DNA of 31,414 nt from a virus, in the IMG/VR virus record IMGVR_UViG_3300032291_000696, positions 1 through 31,414 of that record; one strand, 5' to 3'. The stretch's first letter is position 1. Each line of letters begins with the position of its first letter. The translations under genes were made by a program, and so were the position numbers. The notes under the pieces were generated by a model that saw nothing but the letters and a program-made list of their open reading frames with translations, was not told the DNA's origin and searched no databases. Shown piece by piece: positions 25,668 to 27,550 of the stretch.

Positions 25668-26099
25668 ATGAACCAAGAACTACGAAACGAATTAGTGCAA
25701 TGTTATAAGAATAATTTGCAAAATTTACGAATCCTTCACAGGACGTTAGTAAATGCCAAAATTATAACAGAAGATTTTGCAGTTAGTTCAGGAATCACAG
25801 ACATAAAGCCAAACAGATTGGTTGAATTAGTACAGGACGTTTTTGAAACAGACATTGTCGCAAAGAACAGAAAACAGTCAACCATATTTGCCCGTAAAGC
25901 TGCGGCATACATTTTAAGAAAATACACTCAATTATCTTTAAATGAAATTGCGCCTTTAATTGGGGTCGGCGACCATACAACAGTTATTTACAATATTCAA
26001 ACCGCTTCGGATTTAATGGACACCGAAGATTGGTACAGAGAAAAATTAATGCAAATTGAAGAAGATATTGAAAATTATAATAACTTTGTAAAGAAATAA
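25668..26099 (+). CDS. Free-standing DnaA domain IV protein
   Basis: A 143-aa protein. Residues 68-130 match the DNA-binding domain IV of DnaA: ARKAAAYILRKYTQLSLNEI then PLIGVGDHTTVIYNIQTASD, with the signature GDHTTV (101-106). There is no AAA+ ATPase domain; residues 1-65 are helical and unlike DnaA domain I. So it should recognise DnaA-box-like DNA but cannot form the ATP-dependent filament. It could direct host DnaA or helicase to the phage origin, compete with host DnaA, or act as a transcription regulator. It directly precedes the structured RNA and the replication initiator. Confidence 0.85.
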   Translation: MNQELRNELVQCYKNNLQNLRILHRTLVNAKIITEDFAVSSGITDIKPNRLVELVQDVFETDIVAKNRKQSTIFARKAAAYILRKYTQLSLNEIAPLIGVGDHTTVIYNIQTASDLMDTEDWYREKLMQIEEDIENYNNFVKK

Positions 26100-26105
26100 A
26101 TAAAA

Positions 26106-26191
26106 GCGTTATGGTACAACGCAGTTGAAAATATATTGGGTCAACGGATTCACGGCAAGTACCATTTGCCGAAGTCCCGCGACCCTTTTTT
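26106..26191 (+). ncRNA. Candidate kissing-loop RNA leader of the replication initiator
   Basis: Hairpin 1 is GCGTT-ATGGTAC-AACGC (26106-26122); hairpin 2 has arms CGGCAA and TTGCCG around GTACCAT (26153-26171). The two 7-base loops are exact reverse complements, so they can form a loop-loop helix. Hairpin 2 sits on top of further pairing (CGG with CCG, then GGGTC 26138-26142 with GACCC 26181-26185) and six T residues follow (26186-26191), so the 3' half looks like an intrinsic terminator. The initiator's ATG is 5 bases on. The first loop also starts a 5-codon frame, MVQRS, as in attenuation leaders. Structure is seen; function is inferred. Confidence 0.6.
26138..26191 (+). terminator. Possible attenuator stem with U-tract
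   Basis: GGGTC/GACCC closes a long, interrupted stem that ends in the CGGCAA/TTGCCG hairpin, followed directly by TTTTTT. It is less compact than the other terminators in this genome because of a 5-by-5 internal loop, so it may only act conditionally. It precedes the start codon of the initiator gene by 5 bases. Confidence 0.45.
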
Positions 26192-26196
26192 AATTT

Positions 26197-26886
26197 ATGG
26201 CTATATTTAGAAAAATACACGTCAGTTTTTGGAAGGACGAATTCATTGAAAGTCTGACCCCTGAACAGAAGTTTTTTTATCTGTATTTAATGACTAATGA
26301 CCGTACAACACAATGCGGTATTTATGAAATTACAATAAAACAAATGTGCTATGACACAGGTTACAACGAAGACACAATCAAAAAATTAATTGAATTTTTT
26401 ACGAAATGCGGAAAAATTCGTTATTCTTTGGTAACTAAGGAAATGGCAATGAAGAATTGGGCGAAATACAATGATTCAACTTCGCCAAAGGTAAAATCGT
26501 GTATAAATAAAGAACTTTTAAAGGTAAAAGATACAGTATTGATACAGTATATATACAGTATGGATACACATACGCAAGAAGAAGAAGAACAAGAAGAAGA
26601 AGAAGAACAAGAAAAAGAACAAATTGATTTTAAAATTTTGTTTTTAGATAAGATTGAACCATTTAAAAGTTTATTAGGGGAATCATACCAAGAATTTATT
26701 GATTATTGGTGCGAATCGTCAAAAAGTGGTAAATTACGTTATCAATCAGAAAAATTTTTTGAACCGAAGCGTCGCGTTAATACGTGGCTTCAAAACAAAG
26801 TAAAGTATGGAAATACAAAAAATCCTGACGCAACCGCTGCAAGTCGCAAAAGAATGCAAGACTTACAAAATTGGGTTAATAGCTAA
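26197..26886 (+). CDS. Replication initiator / replisome organiser
   Basis: A 229-aa protein. Residues 1-95 form a winged-helix-like DNA-binding domain (FRKIHVSFWKDEFIESLTPE, then YEITIKQMCYDTGYNEDTIK) typical of phage replisome organisers. Codons 112-126 coincide with four 11-base iterons; codons 127-142 encode a Glu/Gln-rich linker; the C-terminal domain (about 143-229, with EPFKSLLGESYQEFIDYWCE and a basic FEPKRRVNTWLQNKV) probably recruits the helicase or its loader. The layout, with repeats inside the gene for the protein that would bind them, matches lambda O and similar phages. It overlaps the next gene by 80 bases. Confidence 0.72.
   Translation: MAIFRKIHVSFWKDEFIESLTPEQKFFYLYLMTNDRTTQCGIYEITIKQMCYDTGYNEDTIKKLIEFFTKCGKIRYSLVTKEMAMKNWAKYNDSTSPKVKSCINKELLKVKDTVLIQYIYSMDTHTQEEEEQEEEEEQEKEQIDFKILFLDKIEPFKSLLGESYQEFIDYWCESSKSGKLRYQSEKFFEPKRRVNTWLQNKVKYGNTKNPDATAASRKRMQDLQNWVNS
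26531..26700. other. Probable replication origin: iterons, purine tract, AT-rich stretch
   Basis: Four copies of ATACAGTAT-like sequence start at 26531, 26542, 26553 and 26564, exactly 11 bases apart; three are perfect and the fourth is ATACACATA. Each perfect copy is a dyad, ATAC-A-GTAT. Next comes a purine-rich tract (26578-26620) and an AT-rich stretch (26620-26670) that could melt. Because 11 is not a multiple of 3, the repeat is kept at DNA level and does not repeat in the protein. Confidence 0.65.
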
Positions 26887-27550
26887 CGAAGACCTTCCAA
26901 TTGTTGAAGCTTTTAAAGGGGAAAAATTAAACTTAGTTTCGCCGGTTACATTAAGGGAAAACTTAGCTTATATTTTTACTTTGATAGGTTTGACCCGTTT
27001 ACCTGACAAAATGGAATTGGAAGTTATTGAAGATTATATTCGTTCAACTTACCATTATTTTACAGTACAGGAAATGCGCATTGCTTTTAAAATGGCAGTT
27101 CAGGGACGTTTAGAATGCAATACTGACCATTATGAAAAATTTTCGCCTAAATATATTTCCCAAATAATGAATGCCTACAAATCAAAAGCAAACGAAATAC
27201 GCCGTAATATACCCCCACCGCCCGAACCGCCTGCAAAACAATTGACAGACGACGAAATTGTTGAATTCACAAAAAATGATTGGTTGACAGGTAAGCGCGA
27301 AGATTTTAACCGTGTTTTCAATGCTGACAAAGTATTTGGAATCCTTTTAAAAAAGGGGAAATTAAAGTTTACCAAAGAACAAATATTAGAAACCATTAAG
27401 GTTGTACGTGAAGACAATTTGTACAGGTTAAACCGATTGAATCCTATTGAAGCAAAAGAGTTTAGCAAAAGGATTAAGAATGAAGACTATATTGAATCAC
27501 AATGTAAAAAATTAGCTTTAGTTAAATACTTTGAAAATTTATCAAATTAA
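26807..27550 (+). CDS. Replication-module protein, possible helicase loader
   Basis: A 247-aa protein. Residues 22-115 contain IGLIANEDLPIVEAFKGEKL, LAYIFTLIGLTRLPDKMELE and YFTVQEMRIAFKMAVQGRLE, a set I recall from conserved proteins following the initiator in Bacteroidetes phages. A Pro-rich linker (RRNIPPPPEPPAK, about 135) leads to a helical C-terminal domain. No Walker motifs are visible, so it is not a DnaC-type ATPase; it could be a DnaB-interacting loader without ATPase activity. The 80-base overlap with the initiator is long for this genome, but conserved-looking residues begin soon after the start. Confidence 0.6.
   Translation: MEIQKILTQPLQVAKECKTYKIGLIANEDLPIVEAFKGEKLNLVSPVTLRENLAYIFTLIGLTRLPDKMELEVIEDYIRSTYHYFTVQEMRIAFKMAVQGRLECNTDHYEKFSPKYISQIMNAYKSKANEIRRNIPPPPEPPAKQLTDDEIVEFTKNDWLTGKREDFNRVFNADKVFGILLKKGKLKFTKEQILETIKVVREDNLYRLNRLNPIEAKEFSKRIKNEDYIESQCKKLALVKYFENLSN

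Follow-up and report, generated by a model that had tools for sequence, protein, structure and literature searches.

Background

The loops of the ColE1 RNAs comprise 7 nt, and in the immunity of phage P4 a short RNA, the CI RNA, together with RNA pairing stops the transcription of replication genes, separate target sites being used in trans. The ColE1 pair RNA I and RNA II as well as RNAI and the rep leader of the I-complex plasmids have complementary loops that form kissing complexes in the leader of an initiator gene, and the repZ switch of the I-complex plasmids represents a pseudoknot (PMC10724649, in part). The corrinoid (cobalamin) riboswitches contain the L5-L13 kissing loop, a loop-loop helix of the 5' leader that joins an upstream hairpin to the hairpin of the expression platform and has a terminator under its control; this contact spans about 4-5 bp, shows a consensus in one of the loops and is gated by a large corrinoid aptamer (PMC10653944, in part). 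The putRNA of phage HK022, about 70 nt in length, consists of two hairpins, with putL located just downstream of an early promoter, and suppresses termination (PMC9378689, in part).

The element described here occupies positions 26106-26191 of a virus record of 31,414 bases (IMG/VR record IMGVR_UViG_3300032291_000696), which in its full length is referred to as the window. By analogy, its mode of action would be most like that of the kissing-loop-controlled expression platform of the corrinoid riboswitches, yet it is not a member of this class. The contact of the element spans a full 7 bp, is variable in sequence and has the terminator hairpin itself as its partner, and whereas the terminator of the riboswitch is under loop-loop control, the corresponding control is presumed here and the loop-loop helix is deduced from sequence comparison. 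No match to the Rfam model of the corrinoid aptamer was detected in the window and 18 relative loci. The ColE1 and I-complex systems differ from the element in that the partner is an antisense RNA transcribed from the other strand, so that complementarity is automatic, whereas both loops of the element are located on one RNA and have to co-evolve, and an antisense -7 box is not enriched. The P4 CI RNA resembles the element as a short RNA that acts by pairing on replication genes, the target sites in trans being a feature of P4. Position and size are common to the element and HK022 putRNA, but in contrast to the suppression of termination by HK022 put, the element ends in a conserved U-tract.

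A comparison with Rfam 15 yielded no match at the gathering threshold in the window or in the 18 relative loci, and in a relaxed search with 301 bases the single match was to a snoRNA, located on the minus strand (E 1.6; 18.5 bits versus a threshold of 50). No paper on the element was found in the openly licensed literature searched. The leader family is new to Rfam and to this literature, in agreement with an earlier reading of the window from its sequence alone (the sequence-only reading), which knew of no described family with this layout.

Anatomy of the element

The features of the element and of its surroundings are compiled in Table 1; the coordinates assigned to the hairpins, loops, stems, T6 and ATG by the sequence-only reading all hold. 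The P2 hairpin is composed of a lower stem (GGGTC 26138-26142 / GACCC 26181-26185), a middle stem (26146-26148/26175-26177) and an upper stem (GGCAA 26154-26158 / TTGCC 26166-26170). The linker reads AAATATATTG in the group of leaders to which the window belongs and AAACTTATTG or AACAATATTG in other groups of the multiple alignment A4 described below.

Table 1. Features of the leader element and its flanking genes in the window
Feature	Position	Strand	Remarks
Upstream gene, DnaA C-terminal helix-turn-helix protein	25668..26099	+	Pfam Bac_DnaA_C, E 7.6e-14
TTG, possible -33 promoter element	26056..26058	+	22 nt before the -7 box; putative
TAACTTTG, Bacteroidetes -7 promoter box (TAnnTTTG)	26081..26088	+	overlaps the end of the DnaA-like gene
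P1, promoter-proximal hairpin	26106..26122	+	stem GCGTT 26106-26110 / AACGC 26118-26122; 5 bp, 7-nt loop
Loop 1, ATGGTAC	26111..26117	+	first partner of the kissing helix; complementary to 26159-26165
Linker between P1 and P2, A/U-rich	26123..26137	+	alignment A4
P2, second hairpin	26138..26185	+	three stem segments with purine-rich internal loops between them
Loop 2, GTACCAT	26159..26165	+	second partner of the kissing helix, tip of P2
U-tract (T6) of the terminator-like P2	26186..26191	+	followed by the ATG of the downstream gene at 26197-26199
Downstream gene, replisome-organiser type	26197..26886	+	PHROG phrog_6251 'replisome organizer DnaA-like', E 3.7e-48

A search for pairs of perfect hairpins with 5-bp stems and 7-nt loops that are perfectly complementary and lie within 120 nt identified the element as the sole case in the window, and no such case was present in 100 first-order Markov windows of equal length. 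The single-strand fold of the element gave a z-score of -2.8, with four of 200 shuffled sequences folding equally well. The observation is correct and not a product of chance, and the comparative evidence given below is far stronger than these single-window statistics from Markov windows and fold z-score.

The predicted energies amount to -19.6 kcal/mol for P2 alone, -3.2 for P1 and -7.6 for the free 7-bp duplex of the loops. Since P2 is stable on its own and P1 less so, the main task of the loop helix may be to keep P1 attached to P2. When the RNA of the window is folded alone, the structure of lowest energy closes two extra pairs (G-U and U-A) inside loop 2, which leaves three bases of the loop unpaired, and forms pairs between linker and U-tract. 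An open 7-nt loop 2 is therefore not the predicted ground state in the absence of the partner loop; the consensus fold of the family contains neither the extra loop 2 pairs nor the pairing of linker and U-tract.

Co-variation of the two loops in related leaders

The two flanking proteins and three alignments served as queries against viral contigs, the alignment searches being evaluated for the best 80 matches each, which provided the loci L002-L362. In the first set of loci, the intergenic region retains both hairpins while both loops change together, as seen in the pairs ATGGTAC/GTACCAT, ATGCAAC/GTTGCAT, ATGCGAC/GTCGCAT, the swapped version GTCGCAT/ATGCGAC, GTCGTAT/ATACGAC and ATTGCAG/CTGCAAT. 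Alignment A4 was generated from 52 selected sequences, of which six were left out (L013, L024, L191, L326 and both L362 copies), and the window was added, giving 47 rows that were all picked for perfectly complementary loops. It supports 22 pairs with 97.0% of the cells paired, and its covariation score of 0.821 compares with 0.180 for shuffled alignments and with at most 0.171 for slid controls. The number of cells changed on both sides was 325 versus 90.9 in the shuffles; the number of further pair types was unremarkable, with 97 of 500 shuffles reaching as high a value. Two-sided changes occur at all five pairs of the P1 stem, the outermost of which is open in six of the 47 rows, and at five of the seven pairs of the loop-loop helix, whose pairing in 100% of cells reflects the selection of the rows for complementarity. 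A consensus fold predicted without a supplied structure recovered both P1 and P2, with two-sided changes at 16 of 17 pairs, and a G-C pair of the middle helix of P2 is invariant in 47 of 47 rows.

A covariance model (R1) that contains P1 and P2 only and leaves the loops unpaired was used to lessen this circularity, although it was itself trained on leaders whose loops are complementary and is thus biased towards their loop sequences. R1 was run on the window and on all loci but L001, which duplicates the window region (361 of 362), and gave 113 distinct matches with E values up to 0.1, comprising 105 full-length copies on the plus strand, seven minus-strand matches that overlap the same elements and one incomplete match (L274). 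Perfect complementarity of the 7-nt loops was found in 105 of the 105 full plus-strand copies, 100 of them as modelled and five with the complementary 7 bases inside a 9-nt stretch (L145, L326, L320, L321 and L336). Three loop pairs, GTAGAAG/CTTCTAC, GTGAGAG/CTCTCAC and GTCGCAG/CTGCGAC, were first met through weak loop-blind matches (five distinct matches, E 0.005-0.07). In total, 15 types of loop 1 are present among the 105 copies, with one pair occurring in both orders, and the loop-to-loop distance is 38-44 nt throughout; as the loci overlap and are related, all counts refer to distinct sequences and not to independent events. The sequence comparison indicates that the element is a member of a real family of phage leader RNAs with co-varying loops.

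These data bear out the kissing complex that had been proposed from the window alone, since complementarity is kept through double changes, and the suggested covariance search over related phage genomes did reveal paired changes in the stems and in both loops. An uncompensated loss of loop complementarity in homologous leaders, named beforehand as the finding that would speak against a kissing complex, occurs in none of the 105 viral copies; one copy from a metagenome-assembled genome (MAG) is devoid of P1 and is discussed below.

The occurrence of the element next to related genes is not uniform. Among the upstream regions of MAIFRK-type genes, 17 of 37 (L035-L045 and L047-L052) contained no element directly before the gene when read by eye, and in three of these (L042-L044) it is located at a greater distance upstream. 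When named phages were searched at the DNA level with the element and its surroundings (201 bases), 13 uninformative partial matches covering 14-23% of the query were obtained (E 0.05-0.6). In Riemerella phage CRP5 and Bacteroides phage BF1-TP2, inspection by eye of the bases upstream of the related genes showed no such element. The P1 hairpin of the leaders L187-L194 and L042 apparently has an extra outer helix with an asymmetric bulge (TAAGT/ACTTA in L191) that is absent from the subfamily of the window.

Three further readings of the motifs were considered and set aside. The sequence-only reading had pointed to a 5-codon frame (MVQRS) starting in loop 1; this frame exists, with its ATG at 26111 and a TGA at 26126-26128, but translational control by it is unsupported. 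An ATG is located in P1 or loop 1 of 68 of the 105 copies, and the frame comprises five codons in 11 of the 105; in the others it has anything from a single codon to an open frame over all 20 codons read, and a conserved leader peptide was rejected. Mimicry of a tRNA anticodon was considered because positions 1, 2 and 6 of loop 1 are R, U and A in 105 of 105 copies, as in an anticodon loop, but no amino acid is matched by the three bases in the middle, and distant leaders, e.g. GTTCAGG and GTAGCCG, depart from the pattern. A box C/D-like kink-turn, which we take the internal loop of P2 to resemble in the letters of some rows, does not fit in its spacing.

Wobble pairs and the plus-strand RNA

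The distribution of mismatches in the stems was used to determine the strand on which the structure is maintained. The nine inner stem pairs of the 105 copies provide 945 cells, of which 898 are Watson-Crick, 31 G-U, none A-C and 16 other; all 15 modelled pairs yield 1460 Watson-Crick, 42 G-U, nine A-C and 56 other cells along with eight gaps. Seven of the A-C cells belong to the outermost P1 pair (versus two G-U), which probably does not form where they are located, and two to the inner end of the lower P2 stem (versus seven G-U). As wobble pairs are found mostly on the plus strand, the plus-strand RNA is the likely working molecule.

An element acting at the DNA level, either a single-stranded origin or an inverted repeat recognised by the DnaA-like or the initiator protein, would be consistent with the setting in the window, where the genes for a DnaA-domain protein and an initiator-type protein flank the element. 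It is regarded as extremely improbable, as G-U cells prevail over A-C cells both in the inner stems and among all pairs, other genes also follow the element, and the U-tract and the promoter box are conserved. Moreover, the loci L074 and L076 encode DnaA-like proteins that are 100% identical to that of the window, yet their loop pairs differ, and a protein-bound DNA inverted repeat was rejected on these grounds.

Promoter box, U-tract and transcription setting

The consensus of the Bacteroidetes -7 box and its position, with the G at -5, have been described (PMC6847099, in part). Of 123 distinct upstream regions, 120 contain the motif TAnnTT[TC]G no more than 60 nt ahead of P1, versus a background of 5.6%, and a spacing of 22 nt between TTG and the box is the commonest one (38 counts in the 120 upstream regions with a box). 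Taken alone, the conservation of the box in the window is weaker evidence because it overlaps coding sequence. The box lies 3-5 nt before P1 in 56 of these 120 regions, which makes P1 the 5'-terminal hairpin of the RNA; the predicted transcription start of the window is near 26093. A sigma-70 promoter scan was uninformative. On the minus strand, the -7 box, the only box type scored, was detected in 23 of 105 copies versus a background of 22.4% per 200 nt. It is not enriched, so that an antisense RNA from a Bacteroidetes-type promoter was rejected, and with it, for such a promoter, the antisense-like copy-control device that the sequence-only reading had considered.

Downstream of the upper P2 stem, all 105 copies contain an 8-nt stretch with at least six T residues (100 in the first measurement; five were re-measured, an ATG inside P2 having shortened the count). 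The earlier description of the second hairpin as terminator-like and located before the initiator is supported, and a hairpin that is directly followed by a U-tract and has a covarying lower stem corresponds to the layout of an intrinsic terminator or attenuator. A simple terminator scan did not flag P2, which is interrupted by internal loops.

Two hairpins near the transcript start, the arrangement of HK022 put, are likewise found here according to the anatomy and the promoter box, the start itself being predicted. A put-like antitermination RNA would remain on RNA polymerase as a folded leader and carry it past later terminators downstream, and besides the resemblance to the anatomy and near-start location of putRNA, the leader is retained while the downstream genes vary. 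The U-tract after P2 in 105 of 105 copies nevertheless fits a terminator and not an antiterminator, and 'kissing' is not a word of the putRNA paper in the sections considered (PMC9378689, in part); the put-like function is thus held to be rather doubtful.

Genes behind the leader and apparent exchange of the cassette

The genes that follow the leader were tallied for the first locus of each distinct leader and sorted by the first residues of the next open reading frame, and one representative of each gene type was checked against Pfam or PHROGs. This tally assigned 91 of the 105 copies to one of three initiator-type genes, namely 22 to the MAIFRK type, 21 to the DUF1376-like type and 48 to the Lin1244_N type. 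The Pfam score of the DUF1376-like type is 24.6 and lies under the cut-off of 30.1; its presumed role as initiator is suggested by its position and the shared C-terminus. The downstream gene of the window gave no Pfam match at E 0.01. The remaining 14 copies precede an HNH endonuclease gene (identified by Pfam in L090), genes judged by eye to be methyltransferase-like, GIY-YIG-like or otherwise endonuclease-like, and genes of unknown function. The position before a replication initiator, which the sequence-only reading had noted, is true for the window, but the element is not tied to one initiator and precedes several kinds of genes, and a DnaA-domain gene is not always present upstream of the element in the relatives.

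Concerning the replisome organiser, a comparison of the window (26197-26886) with L091, L098, L123 and L126 showed that its N-terminal part, right behind the leader, is of three types, and that the C-terminal part (KFFD.KRR.NTW) is conserved. The open reading frame 26807-27550 of the window, which overlaps the end of the replisome-organiser gene by 80 nt, is also present in L098, L123, L126 and L090; it has no Pfam match and only a PHROG match of unknown function.

Alternatively, the leader might be a ligand-binding riboswitch in which the internal loops of P2 and the linker constitute the aptamer, P2 also serving as expression platform. The purine-rich internal loops, the invariant G-C pair of the middle helix and the recurring linker are in line with this view, and the corrinoid riboswitches control a terminator through a kissing loop (PMC10653944, in part). 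The genes behind the leader, however, have no metabolic pathway in common, the sequences of the internal loops vary between subfamilies and distant leaders keep little beyond the layout, so that such a riboswitch is considered improbable.

The leader was compared with its flanks in 12 pairs of loci. The window and L076 are 97.2% identical upstream, 71.2% in the leader and 91.7% downstream, whereas the window and L080 share 82.2%, 97.5% and 89.3% identity, respectively; other compared pairs, such as the window and L075, are without a contrast between leader and flanks. With respect to these data, the leader seems to be an exchangeable and fast-changing cassette that is changed or swapped as a unit. 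Moreover, 27 phage records chosen for holding such leaders were searched in full length with the model, which detected one copy in 25 of them, one of these having an additional minus-strand match that overlaps its copy, and two copies in the record of L360; none was found in the record of L376, though its leader contains the pair GTCGGAT/ATCCGAC.

Endonuclease- or methyltransferase-like genes are located directly behind the leader in L090 (4133-4630), L284 (from 1773), L358 (from 3937), L362 (1766 and 4621), L141, L145 and L150; the HNH gene of L090 was identified by Pfam, and the HNH-like, GIY-YIG-like and methyltransferase-like genes were assigned by eye. A second leader is present in L358, L360, L361 and L362 and precedes an endonuclease-like gene in L358 and L362. 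Homing by the adjacent endonuclease genes of L090, L358 and L362 may move or convert the leader.

The apparent exchange of the leader bears on the possibility of self-recognition in trans, according to which the terminated RNA of ~95-100 nt would accumulate and its loops would pair with the leader from a second genome copy or from a co-infecting phage of the same loop type, thereby limiting expression of the initiator in copy control or superinfection exclusion, with the variable loops acting as specificity tags. Both the 15 loop types in 105 copies and the divergence or convergence of the leader apart from its flanks in L076 and L080, as if it was exchanged as a unit, are compatible with this proposal. 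Its probability is nevertheless rated as low, as the near-constant loop-to-loop distance is expected for pairing in cis, the antisense -7 box remains at background, a single model-detected copy is present in 25 of the 27 records searched whole, and recombination or homing endonucleases could equally account for the variability. It is likewise doubtful, and put forward as a speculation, that the kissing loops represent a variable RNA identity code. The leaders of Bacteroidetes phages would then share one architecture and carry exchangeable loop pairs, and a terminated leader RNA would recognise its own loop type alone and silence the replication genes of competitors of this type or of surplus copies.

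Distant leaders with a similar layout

The gene behind the most distant copies was used as a query and provided the best 80 further loci. The sequences of the corresponding leaders are mostly unlike A4, and the layout is repeated in many of them. In these leaders the terminator hairpin was located first, followed by a search for complementarity of the 5' part to the inside of this hairpin; five of 68 leaders were dropped since they contained no terminator-like hairpin according to this rule. Perfect complementarity of at least 7 nt was found in 56 of the remaining 63 leaders versus 7.9% of dinucleotide shuffles of the 5' part, with seven of the 63 having less than 7 nt, and complementarity of at least 8 nt in 27 of 63 versus 2.0%. 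The distant leaders are not independent, as several are near-identical and at least three (L371, L372 and L379) derive from contigs already included in the 105, and part of their matches is probably due to chance. A looser test yielded 79% versus 17% in shuffles and 14 of 68 coding stretches, part of its matches being stems of P2. As judged from sequence and pairing, the two-hairpin layout recurs loosely in the distant leaders.

Two leaders of this wider class belong to named phages, the placing of their hairpins having been done by eye. Tenacibaculum phage JQ contains the pair GCATCCTAC/GTAGGATGC, and the leader of Cellulophaga phage Nekkels_1 (L451, 1359-1456) has two 7-nt pairs, GTCTAAC/GTTAGAC and ATTGGAA/TTCCAAT, and is possibly a double kissing version. 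In part of the leaders of L391-L450 (e.g. L420, L422 and L425, just before 2001), a tiny inverted repeat ends in the start codon, ATACGGAATGTATG or AATAACGGAATGTTATG, the halves of which seem by eye to change together.

Copies in bacterial genomes

Bacterial genomes were searched with R1 under stricter filters, scoring 10-14 candidates per genome in overlapping samples of the phylum and the family. One of 395 genomes of the phylum and one of 294 of the family gave matches, each time the same Chitinophagaceae MAG, the copies of which are located on two contigs, have complementary loops and are directly followed by a relative of the phage gene. In all, two MAGs gave three R1 matches. The second is a Sphingomonadaceae MAG with a 3.2-kb contig (L365, 1256-1356; R1 match with E 1e-7), in which P1 is absent between the box and the linker, while the box, the linker, P2 with the loop CTGCAAC, a U-run and a Lin1244-type gene are retained. 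This exception (L365/L369) is not counted among the 105 copies. The missing P1 may reflect either a natural loss, in which case the clamp would be dispensable there, or an assembly fault.

The copy without P1 agrees with the view that the leader is a structural 5' end only, which would protect the transcript, insulate the genes from upstream transcription or expose the start codon, all without regulation. In 56 of 120 cases, 3-5 nt separate the -7 box from the start of P1, and mRNA structure tunes translation initiation in Flavobacterium johnsoniae (PMC6847099, in part). A plain stable hairpin would suffice for these tasks without exact complementarity over 15 loop types, and the structural explanation is considered distinctly improbable.

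A proposed transcription attenuator with a clamped terminator

The order of promoter box, P1, linker, P2 with U-tract and gene corresponds to the layout of a transcription attenuator. On the basis of the hairpins, the complementarity and co-variation of their loops, the plus-strand signature, the U-tract, the promoter box and the position before a gene, all of which are directly visible in the compared sequences, it is moderately probable that the element is a cis-acting promoter-proximal leader RNA that works as a transcription attenuator, its terminator hairpin being clamped by the kissing loop. The clamped terminator is the new part in comparison with an ordinary attenuator.

According to this proposal, the Bacteroidetes-type promoter would drive an RNA that starts shortly before P1, passes through the A/U-rich linker and then forms P2, a hairpin of the intrinsic terminator type with its U-tract before the next gene. 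The 7-nt loop of P1 would pair over its full length with the 7-nt loop of P2 and thereby clamp the 5' end of the transcript and the terminator hairpin together. This clamped structure and the conserved purine-rich internal loops of P2 would set the balance between a stop after about 95-100 nt and read-through into the replication genes, and a phage or host factor or a metabolite might shift this balance. The effect of loop pairing on termination, and termination and regulation as such, are what we infer from this arrangement.

Several observations run counter to the attenuator. As P2 folds well alone, the terminator has no obvious need for loop pairing, and the internal loops of P2 might weaken termination. 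A purely structural clamp does not account for the rapid divergence of the loops between close relatives, L365 has P2, the U-tract and the gene but no P1, and no alternative antiterminator fold was found.

Implications for Bacteroidetes phages

The leader probably controls the amount of the next gene that is made. Little is known of gene control in these viruses, to which the family contributes a class of structured leader RNA with many members, and its exceptionally clean loop co-variation offers a test case for a loop-loop contact that governs termination. At least one leader of the wider class belongs to a named phage with a named host and is open to direct testing. If it is true that the identity of the loops matters between genomes, this would be a new route of recognition between phages, and the identity code, if correct, would constitute an RNA-only incompatibility or superinfection system that is built from a single self-complementary transcript.
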